The notes: generated from the sequence alone by a model not told the origin. Numbered from the stretch's first letter, positions 3,796 through 22,492 are shown. The stretch is DNA of 64,000 nt from Candidatus Woesearchaeota archaeon B3_Woes (GCA_005222965.1 NJBG01000001.1:675533-739532), one strand, 5' to 3'. Program-made: numbers and translations.

Positions 3796-4383
3796 ATGAG
3801 AAGACACGAACACAAAAGAGAAAAAAAGAAAAGACTCTATATGAGCCTGTTTATAGTTATGATTATGACACTAAGTGTTTTAGGTTATATGATTGGTAGT
3901 GGTTATGAAGACCAAACAAAATTTGAATATAATGATTTTAAATTCAACCAAATAACAAACAGATGGAAAACAAAAATAAATAACTATGATGTTATATTTG
4001 ATTATTCTCCTTTGCAGGTTGAACATATTAATATAACTCCAAATATTATTGAAAGAATAAAAAACAGCCCGCAAATAGACACAACATCAAATATTAACAG
4101 CTCATTCAAAGAAGCAATAGCTCTAGCTCAATACAATCTTGCACAACTTTTAGCACTTAATAACAATTTTTTAAGAGGAGGATTTACAACAGAGAACGAA
4201 TTCAACACATCTATCATAACATGTGAAGGCGCCACACAATATATTCCTGTTTTATTATTTGAAAAATCAAACCAAACAAAAATCTATGAAGAAAATAATT
4301 GTATTATTATTAAAGCAAGATCAGAACAAGATGTTATAGCTCTAAAAGATAGACTAGCATATGGGGTATTTGGAATTATCTAA
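3796..4383 (+). CDS. Membrane-anchored protein of unknown function (paralog A)
   Basis: I do not recognise a named family. The 195-residue protein has a strongly basic N-terminus, one transmembrane helix (about 15-33) and an extracytoplasmic domain. It resembles the next gene product: both share a Trp-Lys then PLxV segment near residues 53-76, an IITC motif and an NNC/DNC-then-Ile/Leu segment near the end, so two conserved cysteines could form a disulfide. Two further Cys pairs seen in the partner are absent here. A TATA box about 26 nt upstream supports the chosen start and leaderless translation. Confidence 0.65.
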   Translation: MRRHEHKREKKKRLYMSLFIVMIMTLSVLGYMIGSGYEDQTKFEYNDFKFNQITNRWKTKINNYDVIFDYSPLQVEHINITPNIIERIKNSPQIDTTSNINSSFKEAIALAQYNLAQLLALNNNFLRGGFTTENEFNTSIITCEGATQYIPVLLFEKSNQTKIYEENNCIIIKARSEQDVIALKDRLAYGVFGII

Positions 4384-4384
4384 A

Positions 4385-5053
4385 ATGGAAAAAGAAGAAC
4401 AAAAAGAAACCAAAAAAAACAAATCATTACTATACTCAATAATCACGATTGTATCATTTGTAGTAATTCTTGGTTTAGTATTAATAGGTATAAAGTTATT
4501 TGGTCCAGACGATATTAACGACATTACAGAAGAAATTATTGAAAAAGGCAATACAGAACACGGATATATGTATAATGGATTTGTATTTATCTACCAAGAC
4601 AATTTATGGCACACAAAATGGCAAAGAGGAGATGTACTATACAATGCACATTTCCATTACGGACCTCTAGATGTAATAGATGTTCCTGTTATAGGGCATT
4701 TAAACACAGAGTTAGACACAACCAAATTCTATGTAACTTTCGATCCTCTAGAAAAAAACATAAGTTTAATCGGACTAGGAGCAGCAGAACTAGGATTAAG
4801 CCTAGTTAAAGTTATGGGAGTAAAAATAACACCAGCATGTTATAGAAATATAACAAAAGGATGCTATAAAAGACCAATAATAACATGTGATAATACAGAT
4901 GAAGGAGTAATATTCATCAAAAGCGATGAAATAACAAAAGTAACACTAAAAGATAACTGTATCACACTCCAGGGTAAAGGGGATAATCTTCTTAAAGCTG
5001 TTGATAAAGTGTTATTTAATTTATATGGAATTGTAGAACACGAACAGGATTAA
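4385..5053 (+). CDS. Membrane-anchored protein of unknown function (paralog B)
   Basis: A 222-residue protein with a charged N-terminus, one transmembrane helix (about 15-37) and an extracytoplasmic domain containing four cysteines (two in an ACYRN..KGCYK stretch, then IITC and DNC). It is a diverged tandem paralog of the preceding gene. I chose the ATG at 4385, one base after the neighbour's TAA, over an in-frame ATG at 4361, because the junction TAA-A-ATG recurs at other operon joints in this window and the upstream option would overlap. No function can be assigned. Confidence 0.7.
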   Translation: MEKEEQKETKKNKSLLYSIITIVSFVVILGLVLIGIKLFGPDDINDITEEIIEKGNTEHGYMYNGFVFIYQDNLWHTKWQRGDVLYNAHFHYGPLDVIDVPVIGHLNTELDTTKFYVTFDPLEKNISLIGLGAAELGLSLVKVMGVKITPACYRNITKGCYKRPIITCDNTDEGVIFIKSDEITKVTLKDNCITLQGKGDNLLKAVDKVLFNLYGIVEHEQD

Positions 5054-5414: not shown

Positions 5415-6251
5415 CTAAGATTTATGTATTATATAAAAAACTTCGTTTTCCAAATTAAATCTATCAAATTCTAGATTAATCCTATTCAACATTTTTTCTA
5501 TCCATCCCCTATAAGGATATCTCATTCTCCTGCCTGAAATTGTTTTTGTAGAAAAACTAACAATTATATATTTACAATCTAATGATTTAATAATCTCTTC
5601 ACTTAATTTATGCCCTTTTTCTTCTAAAGGGTCAAGAAATTTAAACATAAAACAAACATCAGCTTTAGGAAGTTTTCTAAAAGAATTCTTTAAATTACCA
5701 ACATACACTTTCCCTTTTAATTTAGAATATTGTTTCATTAAAATAAAATATTTATTTAAAAAATCACAATCTTCTCTATCAATATCATAAGCAGAATAAC
5801 TTAACTCATCTAAACCCATATAAGGATAAGATACAGGATTTAATCCACAACCCAAATCTAATATCTTTTTTGGATTTCCAGTTATCTTAAAAATATCTTT
5901 ATACAATTTTTTATAATCTTTTAATCTTTCACTAGAAGAAACAGAACCAGACAAAATCTTATCATGAGTTTTATAATCATCTTTACCTTTAATCTCCTTT
6001 AGAAAAGCTTTTCTTTTATCTTTTGATTTTGTCTGAAAAGAGCCATAAACCAAATGCAATTTAGCTCTGATAGATTTTACAATTCCTTTAAATTTATCAG
6101 ATTTCTCATGATCCAAAAACCTAACAGATTTAGGATTAATTCTGAAATACCTTAAAATCTCTTCTCTAATCAATTCTTTAGAAATAAACCCATACTTCTT
6201 ATTCTTTTTAACAGAACCCACAAGATTTTCTATCTGTTTTTTAGACAACAT
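5415..6251 (-). CDS. FmrO/ArmA-family 16S rRNA methyltransferase homolog
   Basis: A 278-residue SAM-dependent methyltransferase. The SAM-binding motif LDLGCGLNP is at 131-139, an acidic AYDID follows near 154-158, FMFKFLDPLE is at 201-210 and VSFSTKTISGRR at 231-242. The last two blocks are hallmarks of the Arm/Rmt/FmrO group that methylates N7 of G1405 in 16S rRNA and gives aminoglycoside resistance. An N-terminal helical domain of the expected size is present. Whether the archaeal protein modifies the same base is inference. Its promoter and first codons recur about 1.2 kb away beyond the Fic gene. Confidence 0.8.
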   Translation of the reverse strand: MLSKKQIENLVGSVKKNKKYGFISKELIREEILRYFRINPKSVRFLDHEKSDKFKGIVKSIRAKLHLVYGSFQTKSKDKRKAFLKEIKGKDDYKTHDKILSGSVSSSERLKDYKKLYKDIFKITGNPKKILDLGCGLNPVSYPYMGLDELSYSAYDIDREDCDFLNKYFILMKQYSKLKGKVYVGNLKNSFRKLPKADVCFMFKFLDPLEEKGHKLSEEIIKSLDCKYIIVSFSTKTISGRRMRYPYRGWIEKMLNRINLEFDRFNLENEVFYIIHKS

Positions 6252-6292
6252 AATAAAATCTAATACATATTTATTAATAAATCTTCGCTTAA
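6235..6292. repeat. 58-bp direct repeat, copy 1 (spans the methyltransferase start)
   Basis: This segment matches 7414-7471 with one difference in 58 positions. On the minus strand it covers the promoter and the first six codons (MLSKKQ) of the methyltransferase gene. With copy 2 it brackets the Fic gene; the starts of the copies are 1179 bp apart. The pair implies a recent duplication or an insertion by recombination. Confidence 0.95.
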
Positions 6293-6373
6293 TAGTTCAG
6301 GCTGTCCTATAATAAAAAACCTGAGATTAACTCAAAAAATAGTATGAATATATGTGCACAAATAACCGAAAGA

Positions 6374-6381
6374 TTTATATA
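6374..6381 (+). promoter_or_regulatory. TATA box of the Fic gene
   Basis: TTTATATA is centred about 26 nt before the ATG at 6404, the same spacing seen at many first genes here. It therefore selects 6404 over the earlier in-frame ATG at 6344 and predicts an mRNA with little or no leader. Confidence 0.7.
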
Positions 6382-6403
6382 TTGTGTGCCCTCACATATA
6401 TAC

Positions 6404-7333
6404 ATGACTTACATAGAAACTATAAAAAGGAACAAAAAAGAATATTATTACCTCACAAAAAATATAAGGTTAAGCCTAACTAAGTGGAAAAAAATACGTA
6501 TTTTCTTGGGTGATAAAAAACCTTCAAAAGAAAAACTAAAAAAATATGCTCAAGAAATAGAAAAAAAGGCAAAGCCATTTATAAAAAATTATACATATCT
6601 TTCAGAACATGATGCCGAAACTTTACAAGATCTAAAAAAAAGTTATAGCGTATGGCTAAAACAAATTCCAAAAAGTGTTAAGGAAAAGCTTAATGAAGAT
6701 TTTGTAATAAGATTCACTTATCATAGCAACGCTATCGAGGGAAATAGATTGACTTTAAGGCAAACTGCTTTAATTCTAAAGGATAAGGTAATCCCTTCTG
6801 GGATAAGGGCAGAGGATTATAATGAAGCAATAAACGGAAAAGAATGTTTAGATTATGTTAAAAAATATGATGGAAACTTAAACACTAAATTTCTAGAAAA
6901 AGTCAATGGTATTTTAACAAAAAATACTGGTGTTGTATATGGTGGAAGAATAAGATTTTTTGATGTCCAAATTCAAGGATCAACTCATGTTCCGCCACCA
7001 CATATAGAAATAAAAAAGCACATGCTCAATTTTTATAAATGGTATAGTGCAAATAAGAATAGGTTGCATCCTTTTGAGTTAGCTGCATTAGTCCATGCAA
7101 AACTAACATGGATTCATCCTTTCGAGGATGGAAATGGAAGAACCGCTAGAACTATCATGAATTACATTCTAATGAAAAGGGGATTTCCTATGTTCTTTAT
7201 ACCTTTTGAAAAGAGAGAGCAATATTATCAATCACTAGATATAGCAGATAAAGGAAATTATAAAGAATACATTTCTAGAGTGTTAAGATTAATTATAGAT
7301 CAAATAAGGAGTTATGGGCACAACAAAAAGTAG
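6404..7333 (+). CDS. Fic-family protein (AMP-transferase fold), class II type
   Basis: A 309-residue protein. The catalytic motif HPFEDGNGRTAR is complete at 238-249 (His base, Asp/Glu metal ligand, two Arg for phosphate), so the enzyme can be active. The inhibitory helix motif S-x3-E-G (SNAIEG, 108-113) lies before the Fic core, which defines class II, self-inhibited Fic proteins. No antitoxin-like partner is adjacent. Typical activity is AMP transfer from ATP to Tyr/Thr/Ser of a target protein; the target is unknown. The gene sits between 58-bp direct repeats carrying the methyltransferase promoter, so it is probably an insertion. Confidence 0.9.
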   Translation: MTYIETIKRNKKEYYYLTKNIRLSLTKWKKIRIFLGDKKPSKEKLKKYAQEIEKKAKPFIKNYTYLSEHDAETLQDLKKSYSVWLKQIPKSVKEKLNEDFVIRFTYHSNAIEGNRLTLRQTALILKDKVIPSGIRAEDYNEAINGKECLDYVKKYDGNLNTKFLEKVNGILTKNTGVVYGGRIRFFDVQIQGSTHVPPPHIEIKKHMLNFYKWYSANKNRLHPFELAALVHAKLTWIHPFEDGNGRTARTIMNYILMKRGFPMFFIPFEKREQYYQSLDIADKGNYKEYISRVLRLIIDQIRSYGHNKK

Positions 7334-7367: not shown

Positions 7368-7430
7368 CTAAAGACTTTTATTTTTCCTAACATATAATAA
7401 GAGTGTATCTACTTGTTTTTTAGACAACAT
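7368..7430 (-). pseudogene. 5' remnant of a second methyltransferase gene copy
   Basis: The reading frame begins MLSKKQ like the gene at 6251 and continues with conservative matches (V/I, D/E, then shared Val-Lys/Arg-Lys-Asn-Lys) before a stop after 20 codons. The promoter region above it (7431-7471) is nearly identical to that of the intact gene. The rest of the second copy is missing and the Fic gene occupies its place. The coding part has diverged more than the promoter part, which argues against a simple recent copy error. Confidence 0.6.
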
Positions 7431-7471
7431 ATTAAAATCTAATACATATTTATTAATAAATCTTCGCTTAA
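7414..7471. repeat. 58-bp direct repeat, copy 2
   Basis: Partner of 6235-6292 with a single mismatch. It contains the promoter and first codons of the truncated methyltransferase copy. Immediately beyond it (7473) begins a shorter repeat shared with the end of the TrmB gene, so two separate rearrangement scars abut here. Confidence 0.95.
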
Positions 7472-12022: not shown

Positions 12023-12052
12023 AGATTATCAATAATAAACTATTGATAATCT
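12023..12052 (+). terminator. Perfect 12-bp hairpin after pyrG
   Basis: AGATTATCAATA (12023-12034) and TATTGATAATCT (12041-12052) are exact complements around a 6-nt loop, 26 nt after the pyrG stop. It could be a 3' processing or termination signal. It also lies only 4 bp outside the first inverted repeat of the cassette, so it may belong to the insertion site instead. Confidence 0.5.
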
Positions 12053-12055
12053 TAT

Positions 12056-12131
12056 GTTAAGTTCAATTGTGTTTAAGTTCCCTCTTCTTTTAGAAAAAGA
12101 AGCAAAATGGGGGAGTTCAGGTACTACGTAC
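12056..12131. repeat. Left terminal inverted-repeat region of the nuclease cassette
   Basis: Three blocks in a row are exactly complementary, in mirrored order, to the right end: GTTAAGTTC (12056-12064) with 15671-15679, TTGTGTTTAAGTTCC (12067-12081) with 15617-15631, and TGGGGGAGTTCAG (12108-12120) with 15563-15575. Between blocks two and three lies a hairpin, CTTCTTTT/AAAAGAAG (12084-12102). Directly after block three is a mini-hairpin GTAC-TAC-GTAC (12121-12131). Further short hairpins follow up to about 12175. No transposase is encoded. Confidence 0.85.
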
Positions 12132-12261
12132 ATGTTGCATTTTACTTCGTAAAATCTATTTATCTAAAAATAGATATTTCAATCAAAATTTTATTCCAAT
12201 AATTGATATGAAGAAGGTATTCCAGTAAAGTTTATTAACAAATAAAATAACCAATTCTATT

Positions 12262-15200
12262 ATGACTACAAATTCAAAAGACGAAATAAAAATGTCACCT
12301 AAAACATTTTATCGTTCAAGAAGACCGCAATATTTTTCAGATTCTAAAGTAACTATAAAAAATGAACTTCCAAGAGAAATTTTAGCTTATGAATTAGAAA
12401 AAATTACTGCAAATCAAAAAGAAAATGAATTTGAAAGTTTATGCAGACGACTGGCTGAAAAATTAATTTGTCCTAACCTAATTCCTCAAGTCGGTCCTAC
12501 AGGAGGCGGAGATGGTAAAACTGATTCTGAAACCTATCCTGTCTCTCCAAATATTTCTGACAGATGGTTTATTCCAGAAAAAGGATGGGATAATAATCAA
12601 AAGTGGGCATTTGCTATAAGTGCAAAAGAAAAATGGAGAGATAAAGTAAAAAGTGATGTTAAAAAAATAGTTGATACCAAAAGAGGATATACTAAAATAT
12701 TTTTTATGACAAATCAACTTGTATCAAGCAAGAAGAAAAAAGATAAACAAGATGAATTAAAAGATGAACATAAAATTGAAGTTATTATTCTTGATAAAGA
12801 ATGGATTTTAGAAAAAGTGTATGGTAATCAATTAATTGATATTGTAATAAATAGTTTAAATTTGACTCAATCTTATTCAAATAAAATAGAAGAAATAGGG
12901 TCTAATGATTCTTTAAGAAAAGAAGAATTAGAAGAAATTGAAAAAAATATTAATAACCCAAAATATTATGAGATTTATGATTTTCAATTAGTTGAAGACT
13001 CAATTAGATCTGCAATTTTATCTAGAGAATTAGAAAAACCAAAAGATGAAATAGAAGGAAAATTTCAAAGAGCTGAACGATTTTGTAAAAAAGTAAATCT
13101 AGATAAACAATGGCTAAGAATTTACTATCAAAAAGCGTGGACTTTTTTTTGGTGGTTCGAAGATTATGAAATGTTTATTGAGAATTATAAACTTTTTAAA
13201 ACATTTTTGAAAGATACAAATCAAATATTAGATGTAGAAAATTATATGAATTTATTTAATCTTCTTAGAGTTTGTTCTTCTAAAGTTGATTTAAAAAAGA
13301 TCGGTATTGATTTTAAAAAAGAGAAAGAAAACTTATTTGTTTTTATTGACAAAATTGAGAAAGATAAAGAAAGACCGAATTCTCAACTTACTGCCAAATC
13401 TTTTAAACTTATTATTGAGCTAACTGATAGTATTACTAGTAAAGGTGATAATTTAGACTTACTGCTTACTGAAATCAAAAATGTGCTAGTAAAAAGTGAA
13501 GATTATATTGAATTTCCATTCGAATCAACAAAAAATATTATTCAAGAAATAGGAAATATTATTTCTGATTTGAAGGAATATGATGAATTAATCGATATTT
13601 TAGTTAATATTTCTGAAAAACGTAACTCTCAAAGAGCAGCAGGTTTAATTTACTTTGAGAGAGGAAGACAATATTTCTTAAACGAAAAATACAACTCTTG
13701 TATTCAATATTTTGGTAAAGCTATTGTTAAATTATCTAAAGAAGAATCAAATGAGGAATTATTATATTTAATTTTTAGAGCTTTAAGTGAGTCATATAAA
13801 AATATGGGGCTAATATGGGCTTCATATAGTAGCAATGTTATGGCAACATATTATTCATTGAAACCATTTTTTAATAAACAAAGATTAACTAAAAATGCAA
13901 TTAATTGTCTTAAAGAAATGTGCTACATTGAATTAAAGATAGGAAGATTACCTTTGCTATTTTCATGGTATGAAGCATATTTTACCCTAGCAAAACAATT
14001 TAATATAAGAAATGAAGAAGATATAAGTTTTGGGGATGACTTAACCATAATAGATGGTTGTTTAGGGGTTAGGTTATTAAATTCAAAATGGAATCGTATT
14101 AAAACACAATCATTATTACCAGATGTATTGGAAAATTTAAATCTGTGGATGTCAAGAAAAGCATTAATATATTTATTAGGATATGAAGACTTGATCTGTA
14201 AGGAAAGTAATGATGACCAATTTGCGAAGGGAGAAAATCTAAATGAGTTTTTTACAAAATGGGCGAACCAACCATTCACCGAAGATATGGTTTATAGTAC
14301 TGAATTTTATAATGGTGAAGATATTACTTTAAAGTCAAAGGTTCTTGGAATTGAATTAGTTATTAATATTAAAAATGATTCAGATTCCATTCTTTATGCA
14401 GAAATGATATTAAGTCATGTTGAATCATTTTTTGCTACTAGTTTAAACAAAATATATCCTAAAAAGGATAAAATTAGTATTAATCTCATATTAGAAGAAA
14501 ATGATAAATCGGTTTCATTCAAATCAAATAATAATGGTAAATATAATTATGAATTTATAATTGATATTTCAAAAATTAACAAATCTAGTGAAAAAAATAC
14601 TTTGCCCGATGAATTAAAATCATTCATTATAGATTTATTTTCTAAGCATTTAATAATTGATAATGTTGAAAAATATTTCAAAGACCTATTTGAGCAAGAA
14701 GAAGTTCAAGAAAGAATTGCTTTTAGCTACAATCATCCTATAATTATTAAAAATATTTTAGGAGAATCACCTAAATTTCATTTGAAAAACTGGACAGAAC
14801 TCAGTAAATTAAAAAAATATGATTTAAAGCGTAAAGAACCAATTATATTTACAAATAAAAACGAAGATTCTTCAACATCTAAAAAAATTAATGACTTAAG
14901 TAATTTACGCCATGATAATCGAAAAATGGTCTCATTTATTAATATAGATTTATGGGATAAAGCTAAATGGGAGGGAGTAGGTTTAGGTTTTCATCCTAAA
15001 TTAGGACCTTTTATTGCAATCTGTTTTCAAGACATAGCAATTGGAAAACAAATATTTAAAGAATTAATTGATAAAATTGGAAAGACAGATACAAATGAGA
15101 AACTTCGTCTCTCTATAATTAGAGGTACAAATAAAAAACATCCTCATTGGTATAAAGTTCATTTAGGAACAAATTTAAATAAATTTGAGTTTAAAGAAAA

Positions 15201-15513
15201 AACATACATAACTGCTTCCAGAATTCACGAGATGAATCCTTATAATGATACAAATATTAAAAATTTTATTGAATTATATAGGGAACATAAAGAATATTAT
15301 TTAATGCCTGGGAAGATGTCGCTAGACAAAAAAGGAGTTGAACCATTTTTCGAATTAGGAATTAAAAAAAAGGAATTAAATATATCCTTTGCTTGGAAGA
15401 TTGATAGAAATAATCCTGATTTGGTAGTAATTCGAGAAGGTGATGAACCTTATATTCCTGATGATGTTAAGGATGCACCCGTAAACGATTTATTAAAAAA
15501 AATCAAAAAATAA
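12262..15513 (+). CDS. Large putative defence protein: PD-(D/E)XK nuclease-like domain plus helical repeats
   Basis: A 1083-residue protein, the only gene of the inverted-repeat cassette. Residues about 45-205 look like a restriction-endonuclease-fold domain: GPTGGGDGKTD at 78-88 supplies the acidic metal site and AISAKEKW at 118-125 the x-K motif, followed by a FFMTNQ strand and an ILDKEWI strand. The pattern recalls Mrr-like domains fused to TPR proteins in bacterial defence islands. Residues about 230-640 are helical and TPR-like (for example RAAGLIYFERGRQYFLNEKY near 455). The C-terminal third is mixed alpha/beta and unrecognised. No ATPase motif is visible. Codon use is more T-ended than in neighbouring genes, and a TATA box about 27 nt upstream fixes the start. 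Confidence 0.7.
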   Translation: MTTNSKDEIKMSPKTFYRSRRPQYFSDSKVTIKNELPREILAYELEKITANQKENEFESLCRRLAEKLICPNLIPQVGPTGGGDGKTDSETYPVSPNISDRWFIPEKGWDNNQKWAFAISAKEKWRDKVKSDVKKIVDTKRGYTKIFFMTNQLVSSKKKKDKQDELKDEHKIEVIILDKEWILEKVYGNQLIDIVINSLNLTQSYSNKIEEIGSNDSLRKEELEEIEKNINNPKYYEIYDFQLVEDSIRSAILSRELEKPKDEIEGKFQRAERFCKKVNLDKQWLRIYYQKAWTFFWWFEDYEMFIENYKLFKTFLKDTNQILDVENYMNLFNLLRVCSSKVDLKKIGIDFKKEKENLFVFIDKIEKDKERPNSQLTAKSFKLIIELTDSITSKGDNLDLLLTEIKNVLVKSEDYIEFPFESTKNIIQEIGNIISDLKEYDELIDILVNISEKRNSQRAAGLIYFERGRQYFLNEKYNSCIQYFGKAIVKLSKEESNEELLYLIFRALSESYKNMGLIWASYSSNVMATYYSLKPFFNKQRLTKNAINCLKEMCYIELKIGRLPLLFSWYEAYFTLAKQFNIRNEEDISFGDDLTIIDGCLGVRLLNSKWNRIKTQSLLPDVLENLNLWMSRKALIYLLGYEDLICKESNDDQFAKGENLNEFFTKWANQPFTEDMVYSTEFYNGEDITLKSKVLGIELVINIKNDSDSILYAEMILSHVESFFATSLNKIYPKKDKISINLILEENDKSVSFKSNNNGKYNYEFIIDISKINKSSEKNTLPDELKSFIIDLFSKHLIIDNVEKYFKDLFEQEEVQERIAFSYNHPIIIKNILGESPKFHLKNWTELSKLKKYDLKRKEPIIFTNKNEDSSTSKKINDLSNLRHDNRKMVSFINIDLWDKAKWEGVGLGFHPKLGPFIAICFQDIAIGKQIFKELIDKIGKTDTNEKLRLSIIRGTNKKHPHWYKVHLGTNLNKFEFKEKTYITASRIHEMNPYNDTNIKNFIELYREHKEYYLMPGKMSLDKKGVEPFFELGIKKKELNISFAWKIDRNNPDLVVIREGDEPYIPDDVKDAPVNDLLKKIKK

Positions 15514-15562
15514 TTCTTTTTTATACTTGTTCTTAATGTGTCGCTTCGCTCTTTTGAAGGAA

Positions 15563-15679
15563 CTGAACTCCCCCAGTGCTACGCACATATAGTCTTGACT
15601 TTGTCAAGAATTTATTGGAACTTAAACACAACTCTGCGGACGCAGTTTTCCCACACTTTGTATTGTAAAAGAACTTAAC
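15563..15679. repeat. Right terminal inverted-repeat region of the nuclease cassette
   Basis: Blocks CTGAACTCCCCCA (15563-15575), GGAACTTAAACACAA (15617-15631) and GAACTTAAC (15671-15679) are exact complements of the left-end blocks. A hairpin TCTTGAC/GTCAAGA (15593-15609) sits between the first two, as at the left end, and GTGC-TAC-GCAC (15576-15586) follows the first block. A CTGCG/CGCAG stem (about 15634-15645) lies between the second and third. Beyond the end, the SecF gene resumes the core genome. Confidence 0.85.
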
Positions 15680-15769
15680 AAGACCCAATGTTAGACAATA
15701 TAACTCCTTCTAATGCAGCAACGCATTAATTACGAAACCTTTATAAAATACTTATTTATTTCAGTTGAT

Positions 15770-19533: not shown

Positions 19534-19608
19534 GGTGGCCATGGTGTAGTCTGGTTAGCACCGGAGATTGTGGATCTTCGAGGGTGGGTTCAAATCCCAC
19601 TGGCCACC
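19534..19608 (+). tRNA. tRNA-His (GTG), with encoded G-1
   Basis: A full cloverleaf forms: acceptor GTGGCCA/TGGCCAC, D-arm, anticodon stem GGAGA/TCTTC with loop TTGTGGA (anticodon 19570-19572) and T-stem GTGGG/CCCAC. The base before position 1 (G at 19534) can pair with discriminator C73, the G-1:C73 identity pair of tRNA-His. CCA is not encoded. No intron. Confidence 0.97.
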
Positions 19609-19670
19609 CTTTCTTATAACTCATTTACTAACGAAACCTTTTTAAACAACTTTTTAATAACAACTATTAT

Positions 19671-19768
19671 GCCTCCATAGCTTAGTAGGTAGAGCGTGCG
19701 ACTGTTAATCGCAAGGTCGGCAGAAACGATATAAAAGTCGTTGTCGAATTCAAGTCTGCCTGGAGGCG
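19671..19768 (+). tRNA. tRNA-Asn (GTT) with a 25-nt intron in the T-arm
   Basis: Acceptor GCCTCCA/TGGAGGC, anticodon stem TGCGA/TCGCA with loop CTGTTAA (anticodon 19704-19706). The T-stem GGCAG/CTGCC is interrupted: removing 19724-19748 restores GGCAG-TTCAAGT-CTGCC, a perfect T-arm. The proposed splice sites sit in two 3-nt bulges (AG^A and AA^T) flanking a 4-bp helix CGGC/GTCG, with an intron hairpin AACGA/TCGTT, which is the bulge-helix-bulge recognised by archaeal splicing endonuclease. Discriminator is G; CCA is not encoded. A T-run follows. Confidence 0.93.
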
Positions 19769-19777
19769 CTTTTTATT

Positions 19778-20560
19778 TTACACATGAGAATCTATAATTT
19801 TTTTACCATCTAATATTGCAATTCTATCTTTTATATTGGTTTTAGGAGGGAGATGACCAAATTTTTTCCAGACTTCTAATTTTGTTAGTTGATTACTATT
19901 TGTAAATCCAATTTCATCCATCCATTTTTTTAGTCCTTTTTTACCATTTATTTGAAAATAATATGATTGATATGCCTTATCTCTCCTTTTTTTCATTCTT
20001 TCTCCATGATGAACTTTAAATCCCATATCCAACAAGAGTTTTATTATTGAATCATTCACTTTTTTATTTGATGTTTGATGATCTATTACAGGGTAATAAT
20101 TAAACTTTTTATGTCTATTTTTAAAAACAAGTGAAAAATCTGTATCGGCCATCCCTCTTAAAAATGCCCTTTTAATAGTCATATTAGCATTTTTAATTAT
20201 GTTAGGGACATCACAATTCTTTTTTGCACCTATTGGTAATTGGCACACACCATTTAAGAAAAAATGTATAGCTTTAGATGAAAATACAATTTGAATTGTA
20301 TTGTGACCTTTACTTAATTTAACTTCTTTATTGAACAATAATTTAACTAATTTGGTAAGATAAGTGTCATACCATTCATACTCATTAACATAGTGACCAT
20401 TGTAACACATTCTATAATCTTGTGGTTTTTTATTTAAATGACCATCTCCTAAATGAATCCCTATGAAATGGGCGAGGTGTTCATCTAATTTTTTAGGAAT
20501 TTTCACACCATTTTTAATATCATTATTATTAAATTTAACTTCAGATAAATTCAAAATCAT
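19778..20560 (-). CDS. Free-standing LAGLIDADG homing endonuclease
   Basis: A 260-residue protein with two LAGLIDADG-type helices, AHFIGIHLGDGHL (about 30-42, metal Asp in GDG) and KRAFLRGMADTDFSL (about 127-141, Asp in ADTD). Two motifs mean a monomeric endonuclease that cuts a long asymmetric DNA site. It is not inside an intron or intein: it starts at its own ATG with GGTGA ribosome-binding sequence and ends 10 bp from tRNA-Asn. It is flanked by tRNA-Asn and tRNA-Ile; the target could be a tRNA gene or intron-free allele. An alternative is a domesticated DNA-binding protein, but both acidic residues remain. Confidence 0.85.
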   Translation of the reverse strand: MILNLSEVKFNNNDIKNGVKIPKKLDEHLAHFIGIHLGDGHLNKKPQDYRMCYNGHYVNEYEWYDTYLTKLVKLLFNKEVKLSKGHNTIQIVFSSKAIHFFLNGVCQLPIGAKKNCDVPNIIKNANMTIKRAFLRGMADTDFSLVFKNRHKKFNYYPVIDHQTSNKKVNDSIIKLLLDMGFKVHHGERMKKRRDKAYQSYYFQINGKKGLKKWMDEIGFTNSNQLTKLEVWKKFGHLPPKTNIKDRIAILDGKKIIDSHV

Positions 20561-20756
20561 TTAAATCACCAAAAAATCTTTATTTTAGTTAATAATATGT
20601 AAATGATATATTATTTAAGTAGTTGACGTGTCCGTGACAAATGGCAAATGAGAATTCATAATTTGGTCATTCCAATATTTTTTATTTAAATAATTTTTAA
20701 ACTGAATTTTGGTAAATTTTATAAATGGTTCTCAAATCTTATTCTATACTTTCATT

Positions 20757-20830
20757 GACCCTGTAGCATAGTCTGGTGGTGCGTTCGACTGATAATCGAA
20801 AGGTCCGGAGTTCAAATCTCCGCAGGGTCA
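20757..20830 (+). tRNA. tRNA-Ile (GAT)
   Basis: Acceptor GACCCTG/CAGGGTC with discriminator A, D-stem GCAT/GTGC, anticodon stem TTCGA/TCGAA with loop CTGATAA (anticodon 20791-20793), and T-stem CGGAG/CTCCG. No intron; CCA not encoded. A TATA element (TTTATAAA, about 20718) lies about 37 nt upstream. Confidence 0.97.
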
Positions 20831-20941: not shown

Positions 20942-22492
20942 ATGAATCAAAAAATAAAAACACCAACAAGCGATTCTACAATTAATCTAGTTCTAGATAC
21001 TCTCGAAAAAAACAAACAAACAATTATTTTTGCTAATACAAAAAGAAGTGCTGAAAAAACAGCAGAAGATATAGCAAATAAAATAAAAAAACAAGATATA
21101 GTATTAAATGAACTATCAGAAGATTTTCTTCATTCACTTTCGAGCCCAACAAAACAATGCGAAAGACTAGCCAAATGTATAAAAAAAGGCGTTGCATTTC
21201 ATCACGCTGGATTAGTTCATAAACAAAAAGAACTTATTGAAGATAATTTTAGAAAAGGAAAAATAAAAATAATTTGCGCAACACCCACTCTAGCATATGG
21301 TTTAGACTTGCCAGCTTTTAGAGTAATCTTAAAAGATTTAAGAAGATATGGCCACAGAGGATTACAATTTATTCCTGTTCTAGAATACCTGCAAATGGCA
21401 GGCAGAGCTGGCCGTCCAAAATTTGATAATCAAGGTGAAGCAATAATAGTCTGTAATTCAGAAGAGCACAAAAAAACAGTAACAGAAAGATACATCAATG
21501 GCTCTCCAGAATCAATTGAATCAAAATTAGCAGTTGAACCAGTACTAAGAACATATCTATTAAGCTTAATAGCAACTAATTTTGTAAACACAAAACAGGA
21601 GATTTTCTCTTTTTTTGAAAAAACTTTTTGGGCACATCAATTTGAAGATATGGAAAAATTAAATTTTATAATTGAAAAAATACTTAACATGTTAATAGAC
21701 TGGAACTTCATAACTACTGAAAATAAAGAAGATTTTCAATCTGCAGATGATTTAGAAACAAACAAATACAAACCAACACTAATTGGCAAAAGAGTAGCTG
21801 AACTCTATGTTGATCCACTAACAGCTCATGAAATAATTAAAGCCCTAGATAAAAAAAATACACAACTTAACTCTTTCTCATTCCTCCATCTAGTATCAGG
21901 AACATTAGAAATGAGACCTTTACTAAGAGTTAGGGTAAAAGAATACGACGATATCCAATCAGAATTACTAAAATTCTCAGATAACCTGCTCAAATCAGAA
22001 CCAAACATATATGATTTTGAATATGATGATCATCTAAACAGCGTTAAAACAGCCCTAATGCTGGAAGAATGGATTAATGAAAAATACGAAGAATATCTAT
22101 TAGAAAAATATGCGATAAGACCAGGCGAATTAAGAGTCAAAATACAAATAGCAGACTGGCTTTTATACACAACAGAAGAACTCTCAAGAATACTAAAACT
22201 GCAGCCAATAATAAAAGAAATCAAAAAACTAAGATTTAGATTAAAACACGGAGCAAAAGAAGAACTTATACCATTGTTAAAACTAAAAAACATAGGAAGA
22301 GTCAGAGCTAGAAAGATGTTTAACAACAGAATAAAAAATATTGCAGATGTAAAAAAAGTAGATTTAACCAAATTAGCACAACTAATTGGAAAAACAACAG
22401 CTTTTAAAATTAAAAAAGAAGTTGGGGAAGAAGTACCAGAAGAAATAAAACCAACAAAAAGAAAAGGCCAATTAAGCCTAAATAAATTCTAA
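20942..22492 (+). CDS. Hel308-family helicase lacking the first RecA domain (split or truncated)
   Basis: A 516-residue protein matching only the last three quarters of Hel308. Present: RecA2 with motif IV ([14 protein letters not shown], 27-40), FHHAGL (86-91), motif V ([12 protein letters not shown], 113-124) and motif VI (QMAGRAGRP, 151-159); a winged helix (about 205-290); the ratchet domain (about 290-430); and a helix-hairpin-helix end ([12 protein letters not shown]). Missing: RecA1 with the Walker A and DExH motifs, so it cannot hydrolyse ATP alone. It has its own TATA box (TATTTAAA, 20913-20920) about 26 nt before the ATG, arguing for a genuine split gene. No RecA1 half lies in the window. 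Confidence 0.9.

Follow-up and report, generated by a model that had tools for sequence, protein, structure and literature searches.

The segment at 12056-15679 of the window (the whole 64,000-nucleotide stretch of woesearchaeal DNA that was analysed) is best explained as a cassette of an integron-like gene-capture system, in which a recombination hairpin has one half at each cassette end and a XerA-like recombinase works in trans. We give this reading a probability of about two in three. It draws on the anatomy of the cassettes, their arrangement in arrays, the pairing of left with right ends and its compensatory changes, the recombinase neighbourhood, and the presence of one cassette in differing array contexts.

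The window cassette and its cargo

Three exact inverted-repeat pairs of 9-10, 15 and 13 bp are nested in mirrored order around a single 1083-residue gene, and the coordinates that an earlier note on this DNA had given for them, with the outer pair counted as 9 bp, are right. The outer repeat, GTTAAGTTC (12056-12064 and 15671-15679; 10 bp counting the flanking T/A), marks the two boundaries of the cassette, which are formed on the left by an R box of the form GTTAnnnnn followed by AAT and on the right by its exact inverse, the R box GAACTTAAC. The middle repeat, TTGTGTTTAAGTTCC, supplies the arms of stem 2 at 12067-12081, 11 nt from the left boundary, and at 15617-15631, and the inner repeat, TGGGGGAGTTCAG, supplies those of stem 3 (12108-12120 and 15563-15575); these features are all given on the plus strand. 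Together the repeats make up the top inverted-repeat chain in the 64-kb window (56.6 bits vs. 47.7 for the best of three shuffles), and in a scan anchored on TGTTA..TAACA the cassette scored 51.4, with no shuffled sequence reaching the threshold of 34. The ends are asymmetric, a feature seen again in relatives: the gap between blocks 1 and 2 is 2 nt on the left vs. nearly 40 nt on the right, where a conserved structured spacer (15632-15670) contains hairpin a (CTGCGGACGCAG) and hairpin b (beginning TTTTCCCA), the latter imperfect in the window cassette's own copy. A hairpin at the matching place of each end had been described previously; hairpins do lie between the blocks on both sides, but the sides are not symmetric.

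Directly before the cassette stands a putative secondary attachment site (12024-12055, plus strand), made up of the perfect inverted repeat AGATTATCAATA-N6-TATTGATAATCT and a few further bases. A reading of this hairpin as a terminator was dropped since an identical hairpin precedes another cassette; the 30-bp inverted-repeat stretch is the same before the first of two tandem cassettes elsewhere in the genome (C1:198003). It also resembles the inverted repeats before first cassettes beside recombinase genes. After the right boundary comes a short spacer, AAGACCCAAT (15680-15689), the equivalent of the intercassette spacer of arrays, and then GTTA at 15690. The genes pyrG and secF, separated by the window cassette, abut directly in ten relatives. 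The empty target would read ...AATCTTAT/GTTAGAC..., and no target duplication was seen by eye at the cassette boundaries.

The cargo gene (12262-15513, plus strand) is the only gene inside the cassette, in agreement with the earlier observation that no transposase is present within it. Its product has a PD-(D/E)XK-type N-terminus, a helical TPR-like middle and an uncharacterised C-terminal third. The earlier note had proposed a PD-(D/E)XK-like site and structure prediction as a check on it, and in a fold model of residues 1-240 (mean pLDDT 76.6) the alpha-beta order resembles that of a PD-(D/E)XK core, so the refuting outcome named in the note, a predicted fold lacking such a core, did not arise. 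Nuclease matches of the model in the PDB were EcoT38I, Avs4, FokI and AspBHI, with E=2e-3 to 3e-2 and none below 1e-3. Among homologs the surroundings of G81-G82-G83-D84 and S120-x-K122 are conserved, with D84 and K122 invariant, and the motif is SxK, versus the (D/E)xK of PD-(D/E)XK nucleases. In its predicted N-terminal fold and motif positions the protein is like Avs4, EcoT38I and other PD-(D/E)XK nucleases, although, unlike in Avs4, no STAND ATPase was recognised.

Bacterial plasmids (Nostoc, Cohnella, Agrobacterium, Cupriavidus and others) carry full-length homologs with 25-33% identity as solitary "hypothetical" genes, some of them near AbiE, Tn7-like or integrase genes, and such homologs also occur in five viral contigs. 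Searches of the 1083-aa protein against Pfam, NCBIfam, PADLOC and PDB sequences gave no significant family, the sole match to a profile of seven homologs was a designed protein, and the protein was not found in the 192 other genomes searched. Judged by fold, context and solitary spread, the cargo is probably a solitary nuclease-based defence protein.

Two other features of the window were recorded by eye. A LAGLIDADG-like ORF (19778-20560, minus strand) lies among three tRNA genes at 19535-20830, and a Hel308-like helicase ORF at 20942-22492 appears to comprise the C-terminal half only, with the N-terminal motifs not found upstream; it may be a split gene.

Cassette arrays and the neighbouring recombinase gene

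In the source genome, which is archaeal and 1.02 Mb in size, the 13-mer GTGTTTAAGTTCC is present at only three places, both ends of the window cassette and C1:106218. The third copy belongs to a second element (C1:104141-106284, locus L023). Its left end and that of the window cassette have 26 bp exactly in common, its right end is 82% identical over ~118 bp, and its cargo is two genes unrelated to the window cargo. This element directly adjoins a 276-aa tyrosine recombinase gene (C1:103166-103993), which points away from it and lies 580 kb from the window cassette. At C1:198 kb (L024) two tandem cassettes have the same geometry as the window cassette and different block sequences; they carry an aspartate-semialdehyde-dehydrogenase-like gene (by eye) and an EamA transporter. 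The window feature had earlier been taken for a mobile, self-contained defence or selfish unit moved in trans. A mobile-looking cassette and an enzyme in trans are consistent with our results, but since the likely enzyme is so far away and other cassettes have metabolic cargo, "self-contained defence or selfish unit" fits the cargo only and not the system. At L023:5190-5280 (C1:107.7 kb), a decayed second attI-like site stands 3.6 kb from the first copy, together with a cassette left end that has no right end.

The anatomy of arrays was drawn from 40 array stretches. The left end of a cassette consists of GTTAnnnnn, AAT, stem 2 at offset 11 and stem 3, the right end is the mirror of this, and the signature GTTAnnnnnAAT opens cassettes at other loci too. 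Stem 2 was at the 11-nt offset in 22 cassettes, a type of set picked up via the pairing itself, and a junction scan was run separately to avoid that bias. Cassettes are arranged head to tail with variable intercassette spacers of ~13 nt, typically AGGAATTTCCGAT, at loci L055 (four consecutive cassettes), L057, L024, L134 and L137, and the genes that they carry are varied. The cargo, identified mostly by eye, includes a phosphatase, a PEP-synthase-like enzyme, a Nudix-like protein, a peptidase and transporters, as well as tRNA-ligase-like genes, a DNA methyltransferase with a partner gene, and a Fic-like gene; its orientation relative to the asymmetric ends is mixed (13 vs. 10). On the reverse strand of L062 (4540-7230), a DNA methyltransferase-like gene and a 270-aa partner have the appearance of a restriction-modification pair. 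A non-autonomous DDE transposon (MITE-like) with terminal inverted repeats would share the inverted ends, which start TGTTA, and the absence of an enzyme inside, yet such an element is hardly tenable here: end sequences vary among cassettes of one genome, target duplication is not seen, the arrays are exact with ~13-nt spacers, and the adjoining enzyme is a tyrosine recombinase.

The right end of the window cassette had matches at E<=0.001 in 73 of the 241 genomes of the order, often several per contig. In a phylum-wide sample, 39 of the matching genomes shared the window's order and 6 its class, and classes other than the window's own were absent among the matches. Among named GTDB genomes the right end was found only in Woesearchaeota, Pacearchaeota or records titled archaeon or Nanoarchaeota. 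The matches are not binning noise, as several carriers are near-complete genomes of one or two contigs. A 28-mer from the right end had no match in viral contigs.

At 14 loci, reading upstream from a divergent XerA-like recombinase, one meets the left-end signature of a first cassette after 40-410 bp (mostly 100-240), and in at least seven of these the first cassette comes directly after an inverted repeat, e.g. GTATTAAACGTAATAAAACTACGTTTAATACGT/GTTA. The arrays thus have what defines attI in integrons, a site beside the integrase where the first cassette starts. For G060 and G202, which have both features on the contig, the usual order is not apparent by coordinates alone; the left-end signature is present beside the recombinase of G202. 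In a tree, none of the 15 cassette-adjacent recombinases groups within the supported clade (95/86) that 25 cassette-free XerA-type genes form, and genome G097 encodes one recombinase of either kind. Only two Phage_integrase genes are present in the source genome, at C1:103166 beside the second element and, in very diverged form, at C1:856306; none belonging to the cassette-free XerA-type clade was found there, although a relative of the same family (G001) has one.

The recombinases score best with XerA_Arch. The IntI-specific region near patch III is absent, and integrase_gron (TIGR02249) remained below its cut-off of 265 in all tested recombinases, with scores of 165-218 for full-length ones; its matches mostly fall into two stretches, with ~55 model positions missing between them where both flanks are listed. 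A classical integron with IntI and canonical attC, as reported in Archaea, would also have a divergent recombinase, an attI-like site and an array of varied cassettes. We nevertheless regard it as very unlikely given the missing IntI-specific region and the integrase_gron scores, the position of the site halves, which flank the gene and are not together at its 3' side, and the mixed orientation of the cargo. A canonical attC (R''-L''-VTS-L'-R' at the cassette 3' end) was considered at the junction and dropped for its misfit in polarity and length; the complementary halves are on opposite sides of the gene.

There are also signs that cassettes have moved. One cassette is 93.6% identical over 730 bp in different array neighbourhoods of two genera of one family; the identity stops at or next to the junctions, and the R boxes differ between the two copies. 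Where the same cassette is present in two genera at L059 (reverse strand, 4225-4984) and L134 (7582-8350), the R boxes are mismatched within a copy and roughly match crosswise between copies, as if exchanged during recombination. The window also contains a Fic-like gene (6344-7333), which lies between direct repeats of ~58 bp (6235-6292 and 7414-7471) and is 80% identical at the DNA level over 1021 bp to the attI-proximal cassette cargo in G201 (L070). Two different routes may have carried this gene.

Pairing between the two ends of a cassette

In the separate scan, junctions were located solely by the pattern nnnnnTAAC-spacer-GTTAnnnnnAAT, so that cassettes were not chosen by pairing, and the sample is of modest size (18 consecutive pairs). 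Full pairing of the five variable R-box bases was seen at 8 of the 18 consecutive junctions vs. 4% of different-locus pairs (binomial 2e-7), and a stem 2 match of at least 13 nt was found in 8/18 consecutive pairs vs. 3/300 controls. The 10 consecutive pairs that are not fully paired include some missed junctions and some in which R boxes appear swapped. The repeat sequences differ between cassettes, and inside each cassette left pairs with right. In the right-end spacer, pairing is complete (100%) in hairpin a, which shows two compensatory pairs, and stands at 92% in hairpin b, with 21 compensatory cells vs. 5.1 in shuffled data, a number reached by 0 of 1000 shuffles. Single-strand folding gave the circle junction greater stability than the array junction in 17 of 18 comparisons, with a mean difference of -10.7 kcal/mol (p=2e-4), and for the window cassette the joined ends gave -44.0 vs. 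-16.8 for the array junction. Such a difference in stability suggests that the whole hairpin exists only in the circle.

RNA structure would equally yield long-range pairing with compensatory changes, for example in an RNA-level element in which the 5' and 3' ends of a transcript pair for mRNA protection, processing or circularisation. This explanation is highly improbable, as cargo lies in either orientation to the asymmetric ends (13 vs. 10), the ends travel with differing cargo, and an Rfam search returned tRNAs only and no match for the cassette ends. The main rival is instead a duplex reaction of the Xer/dif-module type, and the transposon and RNA-level readings fit worse than it does. 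A recombinase would then act on the double-stranded core nnnnnTAAC-13-GTTAnnnnn, as in Acinetobacter pdif, and the other stems would be accessory or incidental. The junction, with two inverted arms ~13 nt apart, does resemble dif, the recombinase has its best match in XerA and is without the IntI domain, and the R boxes are symmetric within a cassette. However, stems 2 and 3, like the right-end hairpins, change in sequence yet stay paired, which argues for structure and not sequence-specific duplex binding, and the cassettes stand head to tail by a recombinase and an attI-like site and not between inverted pdif sites. We therefore consider a duplex reaction unlikely, if still the one to be weighed most seriously.

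In the preferred reading, that of an integron-like system with a two-ended hairpin, the XerA-like recombinase (C1:103166-103993) would mostly insert circular cassettes where an inverted-repeat attachment site ends in .../GTTA, and secondary sites, that of the window cassette among them, would be used less frequently. The 580 kb between the window cassette and this gene weigh against the reading, as do the ten junction pairs that fall short of full pairing. The circle would join GAACTTAAC-spacer-GTTAAGTTC. The cassette recombination site would be a single-strand hairpin composed of R box, stem 2, stem 3 and side hairpins, which would be complete only with the ends joined in the circle. Insertion would pull the halves apart and, as a consequence, capture would be favoured over loss. 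Recombinase action on the cassette sites, a single-stranded substrate and a bias in direction are what we infer here.

Known systems and gene gain in DPANN archaea

Integrons are already known from Archaea (Ghaly et al. 2022, PMC9668308). Like them (PMC9668308), the present system has a tyrosine recombinase gene by an attachment site, tandem and mostly one-gene cassettes with varied cargo, sites that depend on how they fold and are little conserved in sequence, GTT/AAC at the R box, and clusters without an integrase. Unlike integrons, it has no IntI-specific domain, its site halves are at the two cassette ends and are split on insertion, its junctions are just ~31 nt long, and its cargo lies in both orientations. 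Since the tests for the IntI domain and for canonical attC both fail, we have not filed it as an integron.

The folded site has a parallel in CTX phage, which integrates by Xer on a folded single strand, with the site forming when two distant inverted segments pair. As there, the cassette site would be made only once distant inverted segments of one strand pair; the difference is that a phage genome is involved there and gene cassettes here, and that CTX is without its own recombinase nearby. Acinetobacter pdif modules, in turn, are bounded by conserved, inversely oriented sites. Such dif/pdif modules (e.g. PMC13141974, PMC6449649) are similar in having a core of two arms about one dif spacing apart and, on our reading, in being moved in trans by a Xer-type recombinase. 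The cassette ends described here differ from them in being cassette-specific, structured, and head to tail beside a recombinase gene. Inversely oriented, conserved 28-bp Xer sites, by which dif modules are recognised, are not what bounds these cassettes, as the outer 9 bp vary by cassette.

In the literature within reach (preprints and most subscription journals lay beyond it), searches on integrons and inverted-repeat elements in Woesearchaeota and DPANN found no description of such a system, returning only the 2022 integron paper (PMC9668308) and unrelated work. Within that literature, the proposed integron-like cassette system of Woesearchaeota is previously undescribed. An IntI domain and canonical attC are both prerequisites for standard integron finders (methods in PMC9668308), and that would account for the system having been overlooked. 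Whether it represents a distinct class of gene capture, derived from Xer recombinases in DPANN independently of integrons and made a one-way ratchet by a two-ended hairpin that insertion destroys, is a more tentative matter, and we place this proposal somewhat below even odds.

DPANN archaea have reduced genomes, and their routes of gene gain are mostly unknown. If our reading is true, one such route would be a cassette platform that is widespread and brings its own recombinase. Xer recombinases lacking an IntI domain could then give rise to integron-like capture, and the cargo of a cassette could stand between the two halves of a recombination hairpin. Since the cassettes carry restriction-modification-like genes, a Fic protein, enzymes, transporters and a nuclease, these arrays are a place to seek new defence genes.
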